Source: Opitutales bacterium | GTDB lineage: Bacteria; Verrucomicrobiota; Verrucomicrobiia; Opitutales; Seribacteraceae | Reading direction: 5' to 3' | Assembly (NCBI GenBank): GCA_029254745.1 | Contig: JAQWWZ010000003.1 | Span: 1 to 58,468 of the forward strand | Length of the DNA: 58,468 bases | In this document: positions 34,292 to 41,798 of the stretch, in pieces | Layout: each line of letters opens with the position of its first letter | How positions within the stretch are numbered: position 1 is the stretch's first letter | Translations under genes and position numbers: made by a program | The notes under the pieces: model-generated | Seen by the model: only the letters and a program-made list of their open reading frames with translations | Told to the model about the DNA's origin: nothing | Databases searched by the model: none

Positions 34292-35767
34292 ATGCCAGAG
34301 TTATCAGGAGAACAAAAACTTCGTATCGTTCTGGAATCCATTATTAGAAAGGTTCCAAAAGAAGAGCAGTGTCAGAAATATGGAATTTCAGAGGAAGAGT
34401 TTTTGGGGTGGCAAGATCAACTGACCAAGAACGGTGGTCAAATTTTCGAACCAGGCTTTGGTAGTAAGACTACAAGCCGTCGTCCCCAGGTCATAAGGAA
34501 AATGGGTCCTGTGGCTAAAGTATTCTTAACGCTTAGCCTTTTCGCCAATATAGGATTGATCACTGTGGCGATAGTCTTGTCCTTAAATAACTCCAGTCAG
34601 CCACCCGAGGCACAGGTTCTTAGCAAAACAGTTGTTCCTTTAGATTCTCCACTCCATTCTGCTCAACCTGATACTGATTTTTCCTCACTTCAGCCAGCTA
34701 CCGCCGAAGTAGAAAAACCACTGGTTGAGCCCTTGGGGGAGATCAAAGACTTACTGGCAACTGGTTCCAATACTATGGGGCAGCAGAAAAATGAAGACCT
34801 GGAAACTCTTTTAGCCAAACCGATGGAATTACCGGTTCCTCAGGTTATTCCTCCTACGAATACTTTTATCGATGTTAGTTCTGAAGTGTCATTTTTGGAC
34901 AAGATTTATGAGGGCAGGCATGTTGTGTATATTCTTGATGTAGGGGATTATGTTCTAAAAGGGGAGGGAGCCGCTAAGAGGTTTGAGCAGATGAAAGATG
35001 CCGTGCTTTCTTCGATTGTTACCTTATCCCCCAACTCCTACTTTAATCTCGTGCTCTATTGGAACCTCAGAGAAACTTCCGCCTTGGGTAAAACCATTCT
35101 TAAAGCGAACCGGGATAATATTAAATATGCGATTGACTGGATATCCGGATTGGGCAGTTCGCTTGAAGATTTAAAAGAGAACCGTAACCAATTTGTGCCC
35201 AAGGAGTTATTATACTCCAAGCCTTTGCCTGGTGTAGTCGGTCCATGGTTTGGTCTTGGTGTAGGTATAACCTTTGATCCAGATTTAATCTTTATTCTTT
35301 CGGGAAATACCCCTGCATTTCCAATGGGTGCCGTTCCCAAATCTCATTTTAATGGTTTGGATTTGAGTCAGCGCTCTTTGCTTAACGGTTCTTCGGAAAC
35401 GCAGTTTGCTCAACCTGCTTCTCTCTTGAGTGGTCTTACTCGACAAACCGCACGGAAGTGGTTGGTGTCAATGGAACCTCCTGGGTCTTTACCCGAAAAT
35501 GTATTGGAAATTGAAAAGATTGCCATACGCCGTCTTGGTTTAAGTGAAGAATTTGCCCAAGCCCAGTCAAGTGTATCCATACCTTGGGAGAAAGTATTTG
35601 AGAATTTCCTGAGTAGTTTAGAGGTGAATTCTCAGATGATTCCTCAGACCAATTTTTTCCTTTGCATGCCACCCCACATTCGTTGGCCAAATGATCTTTT
35701 CAACACAGCCAGCGAGTTTGCCGAAAGTTCGAAGGGAGTGTTGATGGAGGATCCCAAATTTCCCTAG
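34292..35767 (+). CDS. membrane-anchored protein with HTH-like N-terminus and degenerate vWA-like domain
   Basis: A 491-residue protein I cannot assign to a named family. Residues 5-45 (KLRIVLESIIRK ... QCQKYGISEEEFLGWQDQL) resemble the helix-turn-helix of IS3-type transposase OrfA. A single TM helix is at about 75-98. A Pro/Gln/Glu-rich linker follows to about 195. From about 210 the sequence VVYILDVGDYVLKGEGAAKRFEQ resembles the first strand and helix of a von Willebrand A domain with the metal-site DxSxS changed to DVGDY. Predicted topology: HTH in the cytoplasm, vWA-like part in the periplasm. Function unknown. Confidence 0.6.
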   Translation: MPELSGEQKLRIVLESIIRKVPKEEQCQKYGISEEEFLGWQDQLTKNGGQIFEPGFGSKTTSRRPQVIRKMGPVAKVFLTLSLFANIGLITVAIVLSLNNSSQPPEAQVLSKTVVPLDSPLHSAQPDTDFSSLQPATAEVEKPLVEPLGEIKDLLATGSNTMGQQKNEDLETLLAKPMELPVPQVIPPTNTFIDVSSEVSFLDKIYEGRHVVYILDVGDYVLKGEGAAKRFEQMKDAVLSSIVTLSPNSYFNLVLYWNLRETSALGKTILKANRDNIKYAIDWISGLGSSLEDLKENRNQFVPKELLYSKPLPGVVGPWFGLGVGITFDPDLIFILSGNTPAFPMGAVPKSHFNGLDLSQRSLLNGSSETQFAQPASLLSGLTRQTARKWLVSMEPPGSLPENVLEIEKIAIRRLGLSEEFAQAQSSVSIPWEKVFENFLSSLEVNSQMIPQTNFFLCMPPHIRWPNDLFNTASEFAESSKGVLMEDPKFP

Positions 35768-35823: not shown

Positions 35824-37947
35824 ATGAATTTCAAAAGAGTTGGGCTCGCACTTTTAACTTTCTTAGCCTGTTTTAGTTTATCCCACGGTCAATTTGGATC
35901 TGCGGATTTAGTTTCTCTTTCGATCTCTTCCGAATGTGATGAGATCAAGCCTGGCGATTCCACTTCTCTGATGATTGAAGTCAAGGTGGAGCCAGGTTGG
36001 CATGCTTATTGGAAAACTGCGGGTCAGACGGGTTTCCCCACTTCTATTGCTTGGGATTTGCCCGAGGGAATCTCCCTGGGTGCCTTGCAGTTTCCTACGC
36101 CAAAGTACTATGAATTTCAAGGACTTGGGAGTTATGTGCACGAAAAGACTTTTGTTTTATTAGCTGAATTACAAGTGATGGAGGAGTGGAATGTTTCCCA
36201 GCCAGTTTCATTTACGGGTGAATTTTCTACCTTGGTATGTGATGAGGCAAATTGCATCCCTTTTCGCTCAGAACTCAAACTTACTTTACCAATTGGGAAA
36301 GTAACCAAAATAAATGGGCAAGCTTCTACAGTTCTTGCTGCAGCCAAATCTAAATTACCGGTATTTTTAGATAAAGAAAGCCTTACTTCTATTCACGCGA
36401 ATTCAGACTTTATTGATTTCTCCATTCAGAGTGCTCTTTTTGAAAACCGGGCCCCTCAAGATTTCTATTTTTTCCCTGAGGGAGAATTTTTTGAACATGG
36501 AACCCGTCAAAATTTTTCATGGGATGCCAATCTTTCCCGTCTTAGCTTGAGAATGAAGCGAAATGTAGAAGTTGCTGCTCCAAGCCGTTTACAAGGTGTG
36601 CTGGTACACCCTGAACTGGAAAGTGGTCTCAAGGTCGATCTAAGTTTAACGCAAGCGATTTATGGGCGTGATATCCCAAATCGAGCCCTTGCCACACCAG
36701 AAGGCCAAAGGCTTGATTCAGTGCAGGGATATCGATTGCTATGGTTTCTTTTAGCTTTCGTTCTTCTAGCTTTGGCGACATGGGTCTACGGAAAAACAAA
36801 TCAGCCCCATCATTCTAAGGAGAAGAAGGCAGCTGGGAAAGTGCTTGCGTTCCTTACCTTCCTCCTTGCTGTTTGGACAGGATACCCAAGCAAGGAAACC
36901 ACCCCGAATGGGCTTCAATGGCAAGTATGGTCACCAGAACTGGAAAGTAGATTGCGGGAAGAAGGGAAAGCAGTGTATGTCGATTTTACTGCCAAGTGGT
37001 GCCTGTCTTGCCAGGTAAATAAACGGGTATTTCAAACTCAAGATATAATCACTACTTTTGAAGAGAAGGGAATCACTCCTTTGCAAGCAGATTGGACGAA
37101 GCGTGGGGCGACTATCCTTACTGCCTTAAAGGCATACGGACGGGAAGGGGTACCCTTGAATATTTATTACCCTCCATCAAAAGAGGGTATTCCACTCCCA
37201 GAAATACTCAGCCAGGGAATCGTTCTTGAAGTGATTGATTCAGAAGAATCTTATCTTGTATCGGAAGCCAATGGTCTTTGGGCAATTCTTGGCTTTGCTC
37301 TGCTTGGAGGGATGATCCTTAATCTTATGCCCTGTGTCTTCCCCGTGATTGGTCTTAAGATCATGTCTTTTGTTAAGCAAGCCGGGGAAGATAGTCAAAG
37401 GGTCAAGCGACACGGCATGGTTTTTACCTTGGGTGTCTTGTTTTCATTCTGGGCTTTGCTTGGGGTGCTTCTTTTTTTGCGCGAAAGCTTGGAAGCAGAA
37501 CTAGGTTGGGGGTTTCAATTACAGGAACCTCTTTTTGTTTTTGCCCTTGCGGTTTTCTTATTCATTTTCGCTCTAAGCCTCAGTGGCGTGCTTGATATTG
37601 GAATGTCTTTGACTGGGATCGGGGCCAAGGTAACTCGTTCCAATGGCTACACCGGCTCTTTTTTTTCAGGTGTACTTGCGACCCTTGTGGCCACTCCTTG
37701 TATGGCGCCATTTCTTGGGGCTGCCGTGGGTGCTGCTCTGACGATGGACTGGGTAGGGGCTTACTTAGTCTTTAGTTTCATTGCCATTGGCTTGGCTTTG
37801 CCATACCTTGTATTGTCCTTCTTTCCCACTTGGATATCAAGGTTGCCGAAACCTGGTGAGTGGATGGATACTTTTAAGCAGTTTATGGCATTCCCTCTTT
37901 ATGCCACGGTTGCGTGGTTGCTCTGGACACTACAAAGCCTCCTGTAA
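35824..37947 (+). CDS. DsbD/ScsB-like thiol:disulfide reductase with permuted domains
   Basis: A 707-residue membrane reductase carrying electrons from the cytoplasm to periplasmic thiols. A signal peptide (about 1-22) is followed by a beta-rich N domain with cysteines in TLVCDEANC, two TM helices (about 300-350), a thioredoxin domain with WCLSC (C393, C396), and a multi-TM core with paired cysteines C504 (LMPCVFPVIG) and C626 (ATPCMAPFLG). In the usual ScsB/DsbD order the thioredoxin domain is C-terminal to the TM core; here it precedes it, and the protein ends right after the core (WLLWTLQSLL). All expected redox cysteines are present. Confidence 0.85.
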   Translation: MNFKRVGLALLTFLACFSLSHGQFGSADLVSLSISSECDEIKPGDSTSLMIEVKVEPGWHAYWKTAGQTGFPTSIAWDLPEGISLGALQFPTPKYYEFQGLGSYVHEKTFVLLAELQVMEEWNVSQPVSFTGEFSTLVCDEANCIPFRSELKLTLPIGKVTKINGQASTVLAAAKSKLPVFLDKESLTSIHANSDFIDFSIQSALFENRAPQDFYFFPEGEFFEHGTRQNFSWDANLSRLSLRMKRNVEVAAPSRLQGVLVHPELESGLKVDLSLTQAIYGRDIPNRALATPEGQRLDSVQGYRLLWFLLAFVLLALATWVYGKTNQPHHSKEKKAAGKVLAFLTFLLAVWTGYPSKETTPNGLQWQVWSPELESRLREEGKAVYVDFTAKWCLSCQVNKRVFQTQDIITTFEEKGITPLQADWTKRGATILTALKAYGREGVPLNIYYPPSKEGIPLPEILSQGIVLEVIDSEESYLVSEANGLWAILGFALLGGMILNLMPCVFPVIGLKIMSFVKQAGEDSQRVKRHGMVFTLGVLFSFWALLGVLLFLRESLEAELGWGFQLQEPLFVFALAVFLFIFALSLSGVLDIGMSLTGIGAKVTRSNGYTGSFFSGVLATLVATPCMAPFLGAAVGAALTMDWVGAYLVFSFIAIGLALPYLVLSFFPTWISRLPKPGEWMDTFKQFMAFPLYATVAWLLWTLQSLL

Positions 37948-37991: not shown

Positions 37992-39763
<1,772 letters not shown>

Positions 39764-39861
39764 GGGCTGGATTTTTTTAGTTGTTTAAAATATGAGCACA
39801 TTCTTAAAGTTTTTCTGCAGAATCCGGCAAAAGCTTATAAAATGTTTACGATTCAATAGTA

Positions 39862-39877
39862 TGCAGGAATTAAGCCA
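39862..39877 (-). promoter_or_regulatory. sigma-54-like promoter of amtB (38357-39763)
   Basis: Read on the minus strand the 16-mer is TGGCTTAATTCCTGCA. It has GG and GC at the obligatory -24/-12 spacing and matches TGGC at the start and TGCA at the end of the sigma-54 consensus. The predicted transcription start is near 39850, giving an ~85-nt leader. It lies downstream of the terminator of the preceding operon. It is weaker than the match at 41860. Confidence 0.6.
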
Positions 39878-39940
39878 TGAATCATATTCATTATAAAAAT
39901 GAACAAAAATCATTCAAACGAATTCATGTTTTGAGAGACC

Positions 39941-39981
39941 CAAAGCAACAAAAAGGGCCCGATTCAAATGAATCGGGCCCT
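39941..39981 (-). terminator. intrinsic terminator after PII copy 2
   Basis: A perfect 12-bp GC-rich stem (39954-39965 with 39970-39981) and AAAT loop. On the minus strand the stem is followed by a T-rich run (TTTTGTTGCTTT), so this is a classical Rho-independent terminator of the 41798-40010 amt-PII operon. Confidence 0.9.
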
Positions 39982-40009
39982 CGTTGAATGTAAAACTAAG
40001 TAAGTTTAC

Positions 40010-40372
<363 letters not shown>

Positions 40373-40394
40373 TTAAGTCTGAAGGTTCCAGGAA

Positions 40395-41798
40395 TCAAGA
40401 ACTGTAAGCTTCTTGTCCATGCTCGCTAATATCGAGTCCGCGATCCTCTTCTTCCTCACTTACACGAACTCCCATAACTGCTTTTAATATGGAGAATACA
40501 ATGTAGGCAAAGATAAAGGCAAATGCACTTACAAGAAGCGCCCCTTTTAATTGAGTAGCGAAATCAAAACCATCGGCAAAGATTGCGGTGGCCACGGTGC
40601 CCCAGATACCACACACACCATGAACTGAGATTGCACCCACTGGGTCATCAATTTTAGCTTTGTCTAGGTAGATGATTGAGAAGACTACAATAATACCTGC
40701 AATGAATCCGATAGCTAAGGCACCTCCTACATCAATTACATCTGCGTTGGCAGTTATGCCGACGAGACCAGCAAGCAATCCATTTAACGCCATCGACAAG
40801 TCTGGTTTCTTAAGCATAAACCAGGATATGGAAATCGCTCCAAGTGCTCCAGCTGCTGCACCCAAGGTGGTGGTGGTGAATACAAGACCTAGTGTACTAG
40901 GCTCGGCAGAAAGTACGGATCCTCCATTGAAGCCGTACCATCCAAACATCAGAAGAAATACGCCAATGGCAGCAAGAGGGAAACTGTGTGCAGGGATTGG
41001 TTTAATACCATTTTCAGTGTATTTTCCCCTTCTTGGTCCCAAAACCAGCACACAGGCCAAGGCACCAAATCCACCAAAAGCGTGAACCACTGTAGACCCG
41101 GCAAAATCTTTAAAATCCATGCCAGCAAGAACACCACCACCCCAATGCCATGAACCAGCAATTGGATAAGCCACGCCTACAAAAAGAACGGCGAAAATCA
41201 TAAAAGAACTAAGTTTAACCCGTTCTGCTACCGCTCCGGACACAATCGTAGCACCGGTAGCTGCAAACATAGCCTGGAAGATAAAGTCTCCAAAGCCGGT
41301 CATGGCAAGCCCAAGGCCTCCATAACCCCAGGTGTTACCACCATCAGCATTAAGATCCCCGATCATACCACCCCAGCTGAACCATCCGTTAAATTCTCCC
41401 GGGTAGTGAGTGTTAAAACCAAAAAGAGCGTAGGTAATAACTCCAATGGATATAATAAATACATTTTTAAAGAGCACATTAACCACATTTTTTTGCTGGC
41501 ATAACCCTGATTCCAGTGTTGCGAATCCTAAATGCATTAGGAATACCAAAGCGGCTGCAATAACTGTCCAAAGCATAGAGGTTGTAAAGAAGTCGTAGGC
41601 TGGTGCGTATTCACCTTGTGCTTTGAGCAGTGCGTTGTAGTCATCAACGGGACCAGCCTCAGCTTCGACTGCTGCCGGTTCAGCGTGATCGTCAGCATGA
41701 GCTGGTAGGGAATAAGAAAGTAAAAGGGTGGCAGTAAGAAGTAAAAACTTCCAAGGGGCTGCACCCAAGACATTGTATTTTGTAAGTGTATAATTCAT
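40395..41798 (-). CDS. amt: ammonium transporter (Amt, cyanobacterial-like type)
   Basis: A 467-residue ammonium channel: signal peptide ending near AHA-DD (about residue 36), an acidic periplasmic stretch, then 11 TM helices. Pore histidines are in FAGSTVVHAFGGFGAL and ISVHGVCGIWGT. LGFATLESGLCQQKNVVNVL differs from the AmtB neighbour and resembles the Amt type of cyanobacteria and other phyla, so the two Amts are not a recent tandem duplication. The C-terminus GLDISEHG is the PII-contact tail. A near-perfect sigma-54 promoter precedes it. Confidence 0.93.
   Translation of the reverse strand: MNYTLTKYNVLGAAPWKFLLLTATLLLSYSLPAHADDHAEPAAVEAEAGPVDDYNALLKAQGEYAPAYDFFTTSMLWTVIAAALVFLMHLGFATLESGLCQQKNVVNVLFKNVFIISIGVITYALFGFNTHYPGEFNGWFSWGGMIGDLNADGGNTWGYGGLGLAMTGFGDFIFQAMFAATGATIVSGAVAERVKLSSFMIFAVLFVGVAYPIAGSWHWGGGVLAGMDFKDFAGSTVVHAFGGFGALACVLVLGPRRGKYTENGIKPIPAHSFPLAAIGVFLLMFGWYGFNGGSVLSAEPSTLGLVFTTTTLGAAAGALGAISISWFMLKKPDLSMALNGLLAGLVGITANADVIDVGGALAIGFIAGIIVVFSIIYLDKAKIDDPVGAISVHGVCGIWGTVATAIFADGFDFATQLKGALLVSAFAFIFAYIVFSILKAVMGVRVSEEEEDRGLDISEHGQEAYSS

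Follow-up and report, generated by a model that had tools for sequence, protein, structure and literature searches.

Module order of the 707-aa protein

The locus considered here raises the question of whether a disulfide reductase of the DsbD/ScsB class can be built with its thioredoxin domain ahead of its membrane core and, if so, how such a protein came about. It occupies positions 35824-37947 (+) of the window (the whole 58,468-nt stretch of Opitutales DNA that was analyzed) as an uninterrupted reading frame of 707 aa. Our analysis makes it highly probable that the product is a working inner-membrane DsbD/ScsB-class disulfide reductase (its activity being predicted from sequence), in which the three C-terminal modules are circularly permuted, B-C-A replacing A-B-C, while the N module keeps its place. 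Here N denotes the periplasmic module, A the CcdA-equivalent part (TM1-6), B the TM7-8 pair and C the thioredoxin; the canonical order is N-A-B-C, and that of the window protein is N-B-C-A. The features are listed below, with the basis of each assignment in brackets.

35824..37947 (+), permuted DsbD/ScsB-like reductase, 707 aa, N - TM7/8 - thioredoxin - TM1-6 (ORF, Pfam, HMM)
35824..35892 (+), probable Sec signal peptide, residues 1-23 (hydropathy and sequence)
35905..36297 (+), N1, DsbD_N domain, residues 28-158, with the C139/C144 pair at 36238-36255 (PF11412, match to nDsbD structure)
36313..36651 (+), N2, second ScsB-type N subdomain, residues 164-276 (6c29 alignment, HMM)
36721..36897 (+), module B, TM7-TM8 hairpin, residues 300-358, with a W-V-Y-G-K motif and a positive loop (aligned to canonical TM7/8)
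36907..37248 (+), module C, DsbD-gamma-type thioredoxin, residues 362-475, with WCLSC at 36997-37011 (PF13899, 1uc7 match)
37273..37944 (+), module A, six-helix CcdA-like core, residues 484-707, with C504 (37333-37335) and C626 (37699-37701) (PF02683)
37992..38330 (-), GlnK-type PII gene, convergent with the DsbD gene (named from sequence)
G000:C72 8301-8717; L002 1198-2055 (-), separate DsbD_N-only protein (sequence)

Three Pfam domains, each scoring above its curated cut-off, follow one another as DsbD_N (43-154), Thioredoxin_7 (366-451) and DsbD_TM (PF02683; 486-700, 59.7 bits against a cut-off of 27.1), and two TM helices (about 305-325 and 336-354) follow the N domain ahead of the thioredoxin. 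The order proposed in the initial annotation (N domain, two TM helices, thioredoxin, TM core at the end) is borne out by these domains and helix positions, as are, in the sequence itself, the WCLSC motif at 392-396, the core cysteines C504 and C626 and the end of the chain directly after TM6. Its statement that all cysteines are kept also holds, and extends to a pair in the N domain (C139/C144) that it had not named.

Compared with canonical relatives from the same taxonomic order, modules B and C are displaced as one block, in agreement with the domain permutation suggested earlier. The cut falls exactly at the border where the six-helix CcdA-like core meets TM7/8, helices that are specific to DsbD and absent from CcdA. 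Against the NCBIfam DsbD model, two canonical Opitutia proteins align in one stretch, the window protein and other permuted proteins in two. Beyond the earlier reading, the data support a rotation that involves three modules and leaves N in place, and relatives with the order N-C-A-B or with A-B inserted into N.

Distribution of the permuted proteins and other module orders

The search for the same order in related genomes, which the initial annotation had suggested, returned 26 N-B-C-A proteins by HMM, along with four B-C-A proteins lacking N, 29 N-C-A-B and 84 canonical N-A-B-C proteins (non-identical proteins over all loci sampled). All 26 N-B-C-A and four B-C-A proteins come from the GTDB family of the window (f1; marine Opitutales, Verrucomicrobiota) and from many independent assemblies, the B-C-A proteins belonging to genus g4. 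In public records the family appears under Opitutia/Opitutales, Verrucomicrobiota, mostly as marine bins; one N-B-C-A relative stems from a genome titled isolate AG-430-C07 assembly, which we take to be a single-cell genome. Matches at E <= 1e-30 were found in 34 of the 42 f1 genomes, including all 14 that are >=90% complete and <=5% contaminated. Identity among the 26 diverged N-B-C-A proteins goes down to about 44%, with the TM1 and TM4 cysteines and the WCxxC motif conserved in 30/30 N-B-C-A/B-C-A proteins and the N-domain cysteine pair in 26/26 N-B-C-A proteins. Among the matches listed, a contiguous thioredoxin-core match occurred in f1 and f19 only (class scan, 287 genomes; phylum scan, 145), and outside Verrucomicrobiota none was found in 61 genomes of one other phylum, a search of low sensitivity for distant proteins.

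Within f1, genus g3 carries an N-C-A-B protein at the locus shared with the N-B-C-A genes, beside the same convergent GlnK-Amt genes. The same order occurs at unrelated loci in Puniceicoccales from termite gut and in Opitutae from lakes (f19 and similar), habitats that we presume in part from isolate titles. Pfam confirmed the thioredoxin ahead of the core in five N-C-A-B proteins. Opitutia proteins of this order (L028/L029/L061, L030, L064-L083 and others) share all four modules and the forward position of the thioredoxin with the window protein and differ from it in that TM7/8 still follows the core and forms a free tail at the C-terminus. One contig assigned to a Polynucleobacter meluiroseus bin (L072) encodes a DsbD of the order N-C-A-B that falls within the lake Opitutae clade, and the contig is probably mis-binned.

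A further arrangement, N1-N2a-A-B-N2b-C, was found in L032 (f18; ORF from 1533, +) and L107 (ORF from 933, +), where A-B sits inside N2, with the first third of this subdomain before A and the remainder between B and C. An N2 profile built without these two proteins recognized the moved part at 22 and 21 bits and the front part weakly (9 and 7 bits); their N2 subdomain would need to be assembled from two chain segments. Several DsbD arrangements are found side by side within a single bacterial order, and one locus accommodates two of them.

The N module is less constrained than the others: N2 is absent in two g1 proteins, and N is entirely absent in genus g4. In the genome of the window, an IscA/HesB-like gene has as its neighbor the gene for a separate, secreted protein of 285 aa that is DsbD_N-only and carries a C-SQT-C pair, and similar proteins of 280-346 aa are present in most f1 genomes; as a guess, such a protein might act as output partner to the B-C-A proteins of g4, which lack N.

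Phylogenetic analysis and number of rearrangements

In a maximum-likelihood tree of the combined A and C modules, all permuted proteins of f1 form one group (100/99), within which the g3 N-C-A-B proteins stand beside the N-B-C-A/B-C-A group (100/93). The lake and termite N-C-A-B proteins form a separate group (100/96) adjoining f18. A single permutation event behind all permuted proteins, followed by rearrangement and transfer, appears unlikely compared with at least two events, albeit it deserves some weight: a tree constrained to hold all of them in one clade was rejected only weakly (p-AU 0.031), and the permuted rows lie close together in the tree of C alone. On the other hand, in the best tree canonical and f18 rows separate the f1 proteins from the lake/termite N-C-A-B group, a single clade of all N-C-A-B proteins was rejected (p-AU 0.0014), and the f1 and lake/termite groups have no shared synteny.

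Class assignment and predicted function

The features that distinguish DsbD and ScsB from their relatives were compared with the window protein one at a time. It has a periplasmic N domain with a cysteine pair (PF11412 above cut-off; C139/C144), whose region in the full-length model (residues 23-278) matches the N domain of P. mirabilis ScsB (6c29) with a Z score of 19.3; a core with one cysteine each in TM1 and TM4 (PF02683; C504, C626); and a thioredoxin domain with a CXXC motif (PF13899 above cut-off). With ScsB it has in common a periplasmic N domain in two parts and a cysteine pair in each of N, core and thioredoxin, and it differs in having the thioredoxin and TM7/8 ahead of TM1-6 and in ending at TM6. 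With DsbD of E. coli and Neisseria it shares the DsbD_TM core, the DsbD-gamma thioredoxin and the cysteine logic, and departs in its N-B-C-A order, which replaces that of an N domain, an eight-helix core and a C-terminal thioredoxin. The NCBIfam DsbD model (NF001419) gave 88.3 bits, below its cut-off of 330, and since canonical Opitutia proteins also fall short (93 and 80 bits), this score does not discriminate. CcdA, a six-helix core with two cysteines, corresponds to the last module of the window protein and has no N domain, TM7/8 or thioredoxin. The protein is not such a stand-alone core, as N and thioredoxin modules are encoded in the same ORF; CcdA has been described as the transmembrane part only (PMC4460558). 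Overall, the parts are all known and what appears to be new is their arrangement, the protein departing from the DsbD/ScsB order and agreeing with this class in the other discriminating features tested. We found no published description of a DsbD permutation in the open-access literature and no Pfam or NCBIfam model with the N-B-C-A order, so that a known large family of this order, which the initial annotation had named as grounds for rejecting its reading, appeared neither in these sources nor in our genome scans.

The DsbD_TM search of the window's genome (96.5% complete) gave a single match, so that no further DsbD of canonical order was found there. Since the cysteines are kept and this is the sole DsbD_TM protein of the genome, we infer that an ordinary DsbD/ScsB reductase is the best reading. 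In E. coli DsbD, electrons pass from cytoplasmic thioredoxin to the core, then to the thioredoxin domain and the N domain (PMC4460558); by analogy, they would run here from cytoplasmic thioredoxin through C504/C626, C393/C396 and C139/C144 to periplasmic substrates. We consider it rather improbable that the permuted form has instead taken on a changed job, such as a dedicated substrate or another direction of electron flow. The order is indeed fixed in three genera, the losses of N2 (two proteins) and of N (one genus) indicate an output end under change, and the separate secreted DsbD_N protein exists; the retention of every cysteine in the only DsbD_TM protein of the genome is nevertheless what a general role predicts.

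Predicted topology, structure models and the role of TM7/8

A rationale for an ordinary function in an altered order may lie in the anatomy of the modules, each of which would have both ends in the periplasm (six helices in A, two in B, none in C and N). Modules of this kind could be rejoined at any border without inverting a helix, so that topology would be preserved. The chain would begin with N in the periplasm, pass down and up through TM7-8, place the thioredoxin in the periplasm and finish with six helices that end in the periplasm. Mean net loop charges over 26 sequences (B hairpin +2.0, TM1-2 +0.8, TM5-6 +1.1, TM2-3 -2.5) fit a cytoplasmic location of the first three loops and a periplasmic one of TM2-3, while the about neutral TM3-4 loop in the same sequences counts against the positive-inside fit. 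The conserved property would be topology, in which module ends share one side of the membrane, and not chain order.

A model of B-C-A (residues 294-707) is a compact single unit (pLDDT 90.2, pTM 0.87); its 94-row alignment contains canonical fragments as separate rows, so that the docking of the thioredoxin on the core is tested in part. The full-length model is weaker (pLDDT 71.9, pTM 0.41), with residues 25-162 matching nDsbD structures. The best structural match of the modelled thioredoxin is DsbD-gamma (1uc7, 2fwh; Z about 12-13, 12.4-13.1 for 1uc7). For the TM core, no solved structure was found by profile or among the listed Foldseek/VIA matches, which covered the N and thioredoxin parts only.

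The TM7/8 tail of N-C-A-B proteins has about 63 residues with nothing behind it and keeps a W-x-x-G-R-W motif as in canonical proteins. The retention of TM7/8 even as a free C-terminal tail seems to point to a role beyond that of a tether or linker for the thioredoxin. This arrangement isolates a question about DsbD itself, namely the purpose of the two helices that CcdA lacks, and makes it directly testable, as TM7/8 in N-C-A-B no longer carries the thioredoxin and its motif is still kept. We tentatively propose, with confidence just short of even, that DsbD in Opitutia is assembled from a kit of three parts, the order of which was rotated at least three times (two separate thioredoxin-to-core joins and one further rotation at the same locus), with one insertion of the membrane block into N; that the transporter folds from permuted helices; and that TM7/8 takes part in the working of the transporter and is not a thioredoxin tether. 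It would represent a multi-pass membrane protein reshuffled repeatedly in nature with every reactive cysteine retained. Among multi-pass membrane proteins, natural circular permutation appears to be rare.

Origin of the permutation

An origin of B-C-A by fusion of different genes (e.g. of a TM7/8-thioredoxin piece with CcdA), as opposed to permutation of one gene, would have some precedent in the DsbD_N-only protein that exists besides the full-length gene and in the stand-alone CcdA-like cores known elsewhere; moreover, no tandem-duplicate intermediate such as N-B-C-A-B was present among the sampled ORFs. Such a fusion is nonetheless very unlikely. Trees of A alone and of C alone each recover the f1 group, joining N-B-C-A with the f1 N-C-A-B proteins (97 and 97), from which it follows that A and C have a common history and do not stem from a fusion of separate genes. 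In addition, N-B-C-A and f1 N-C-A-B occupy one locus, and four proteins end in WNLSAQL, resembling the start of the canonical A-B linker.

For permutation within one gene, the simplest path we infer would be a tandem duplication inside the gene with subsequent loss from both ends. N-B-C-A could derive from N-C-A-B, or both from a duplicated ancestor (e.g. N-B-C-A-B) that lost one B, the latter offering the simpler genetic route to the two orders. No room for a TM7/8 remnant was seen 3' of the DsbD stop, where 44 bases separate it from the convergent GlnK gene.

Integrity and genomic context of the locus

Misassembly (which the initial annotation had held out as a possible refutation), a frameshift join or a decaying pseudogene can be dismissed as an explanation of the odd order, even though most genomes are metagenome bins and one relative has a frame break in the gene, because the same order recurs at one conserved locus in 26 diverged proteins from independently assembled genomes (including AG-430-C07), nearly all free of stops and with invariant cysteines and core residues. 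The broken relative is a g2 N-B-C-A gene (G436:C8 93470-95522) split into two frames of 366 and 451 aa by a sequencing error or as a pseudogene. A canonical DsbD ORF (L125, from 4773, +) ends within the thioredoxin domain (at YIDYTAVW), probably through a frameshift.

The GlnK-type PII gene is the neighbor common to N-B-C-A and f1 N-C-A-B genes; it is an anchor of orthology and has no part in DsbD function. The genes upstream of DsbD differ between the g3 N-C-A-B and the N-B-C-A loci. A 491-aa ORF at 34292-35767 of the window, which has a TM helix and, at its N-terminus, a stretch resembling a helix-turn-helix, looked VWA-like, but Pfam gave just a weak, sub-threshold DUF1153 match; the genomes with N-B-C-A or B-C-A keep this ORF between RsmE and DsbD, and g3 does not. 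Downstream, positions 37992-41798 hold a tandem of two GlnK-Amt pairs that is conserved across family f1.
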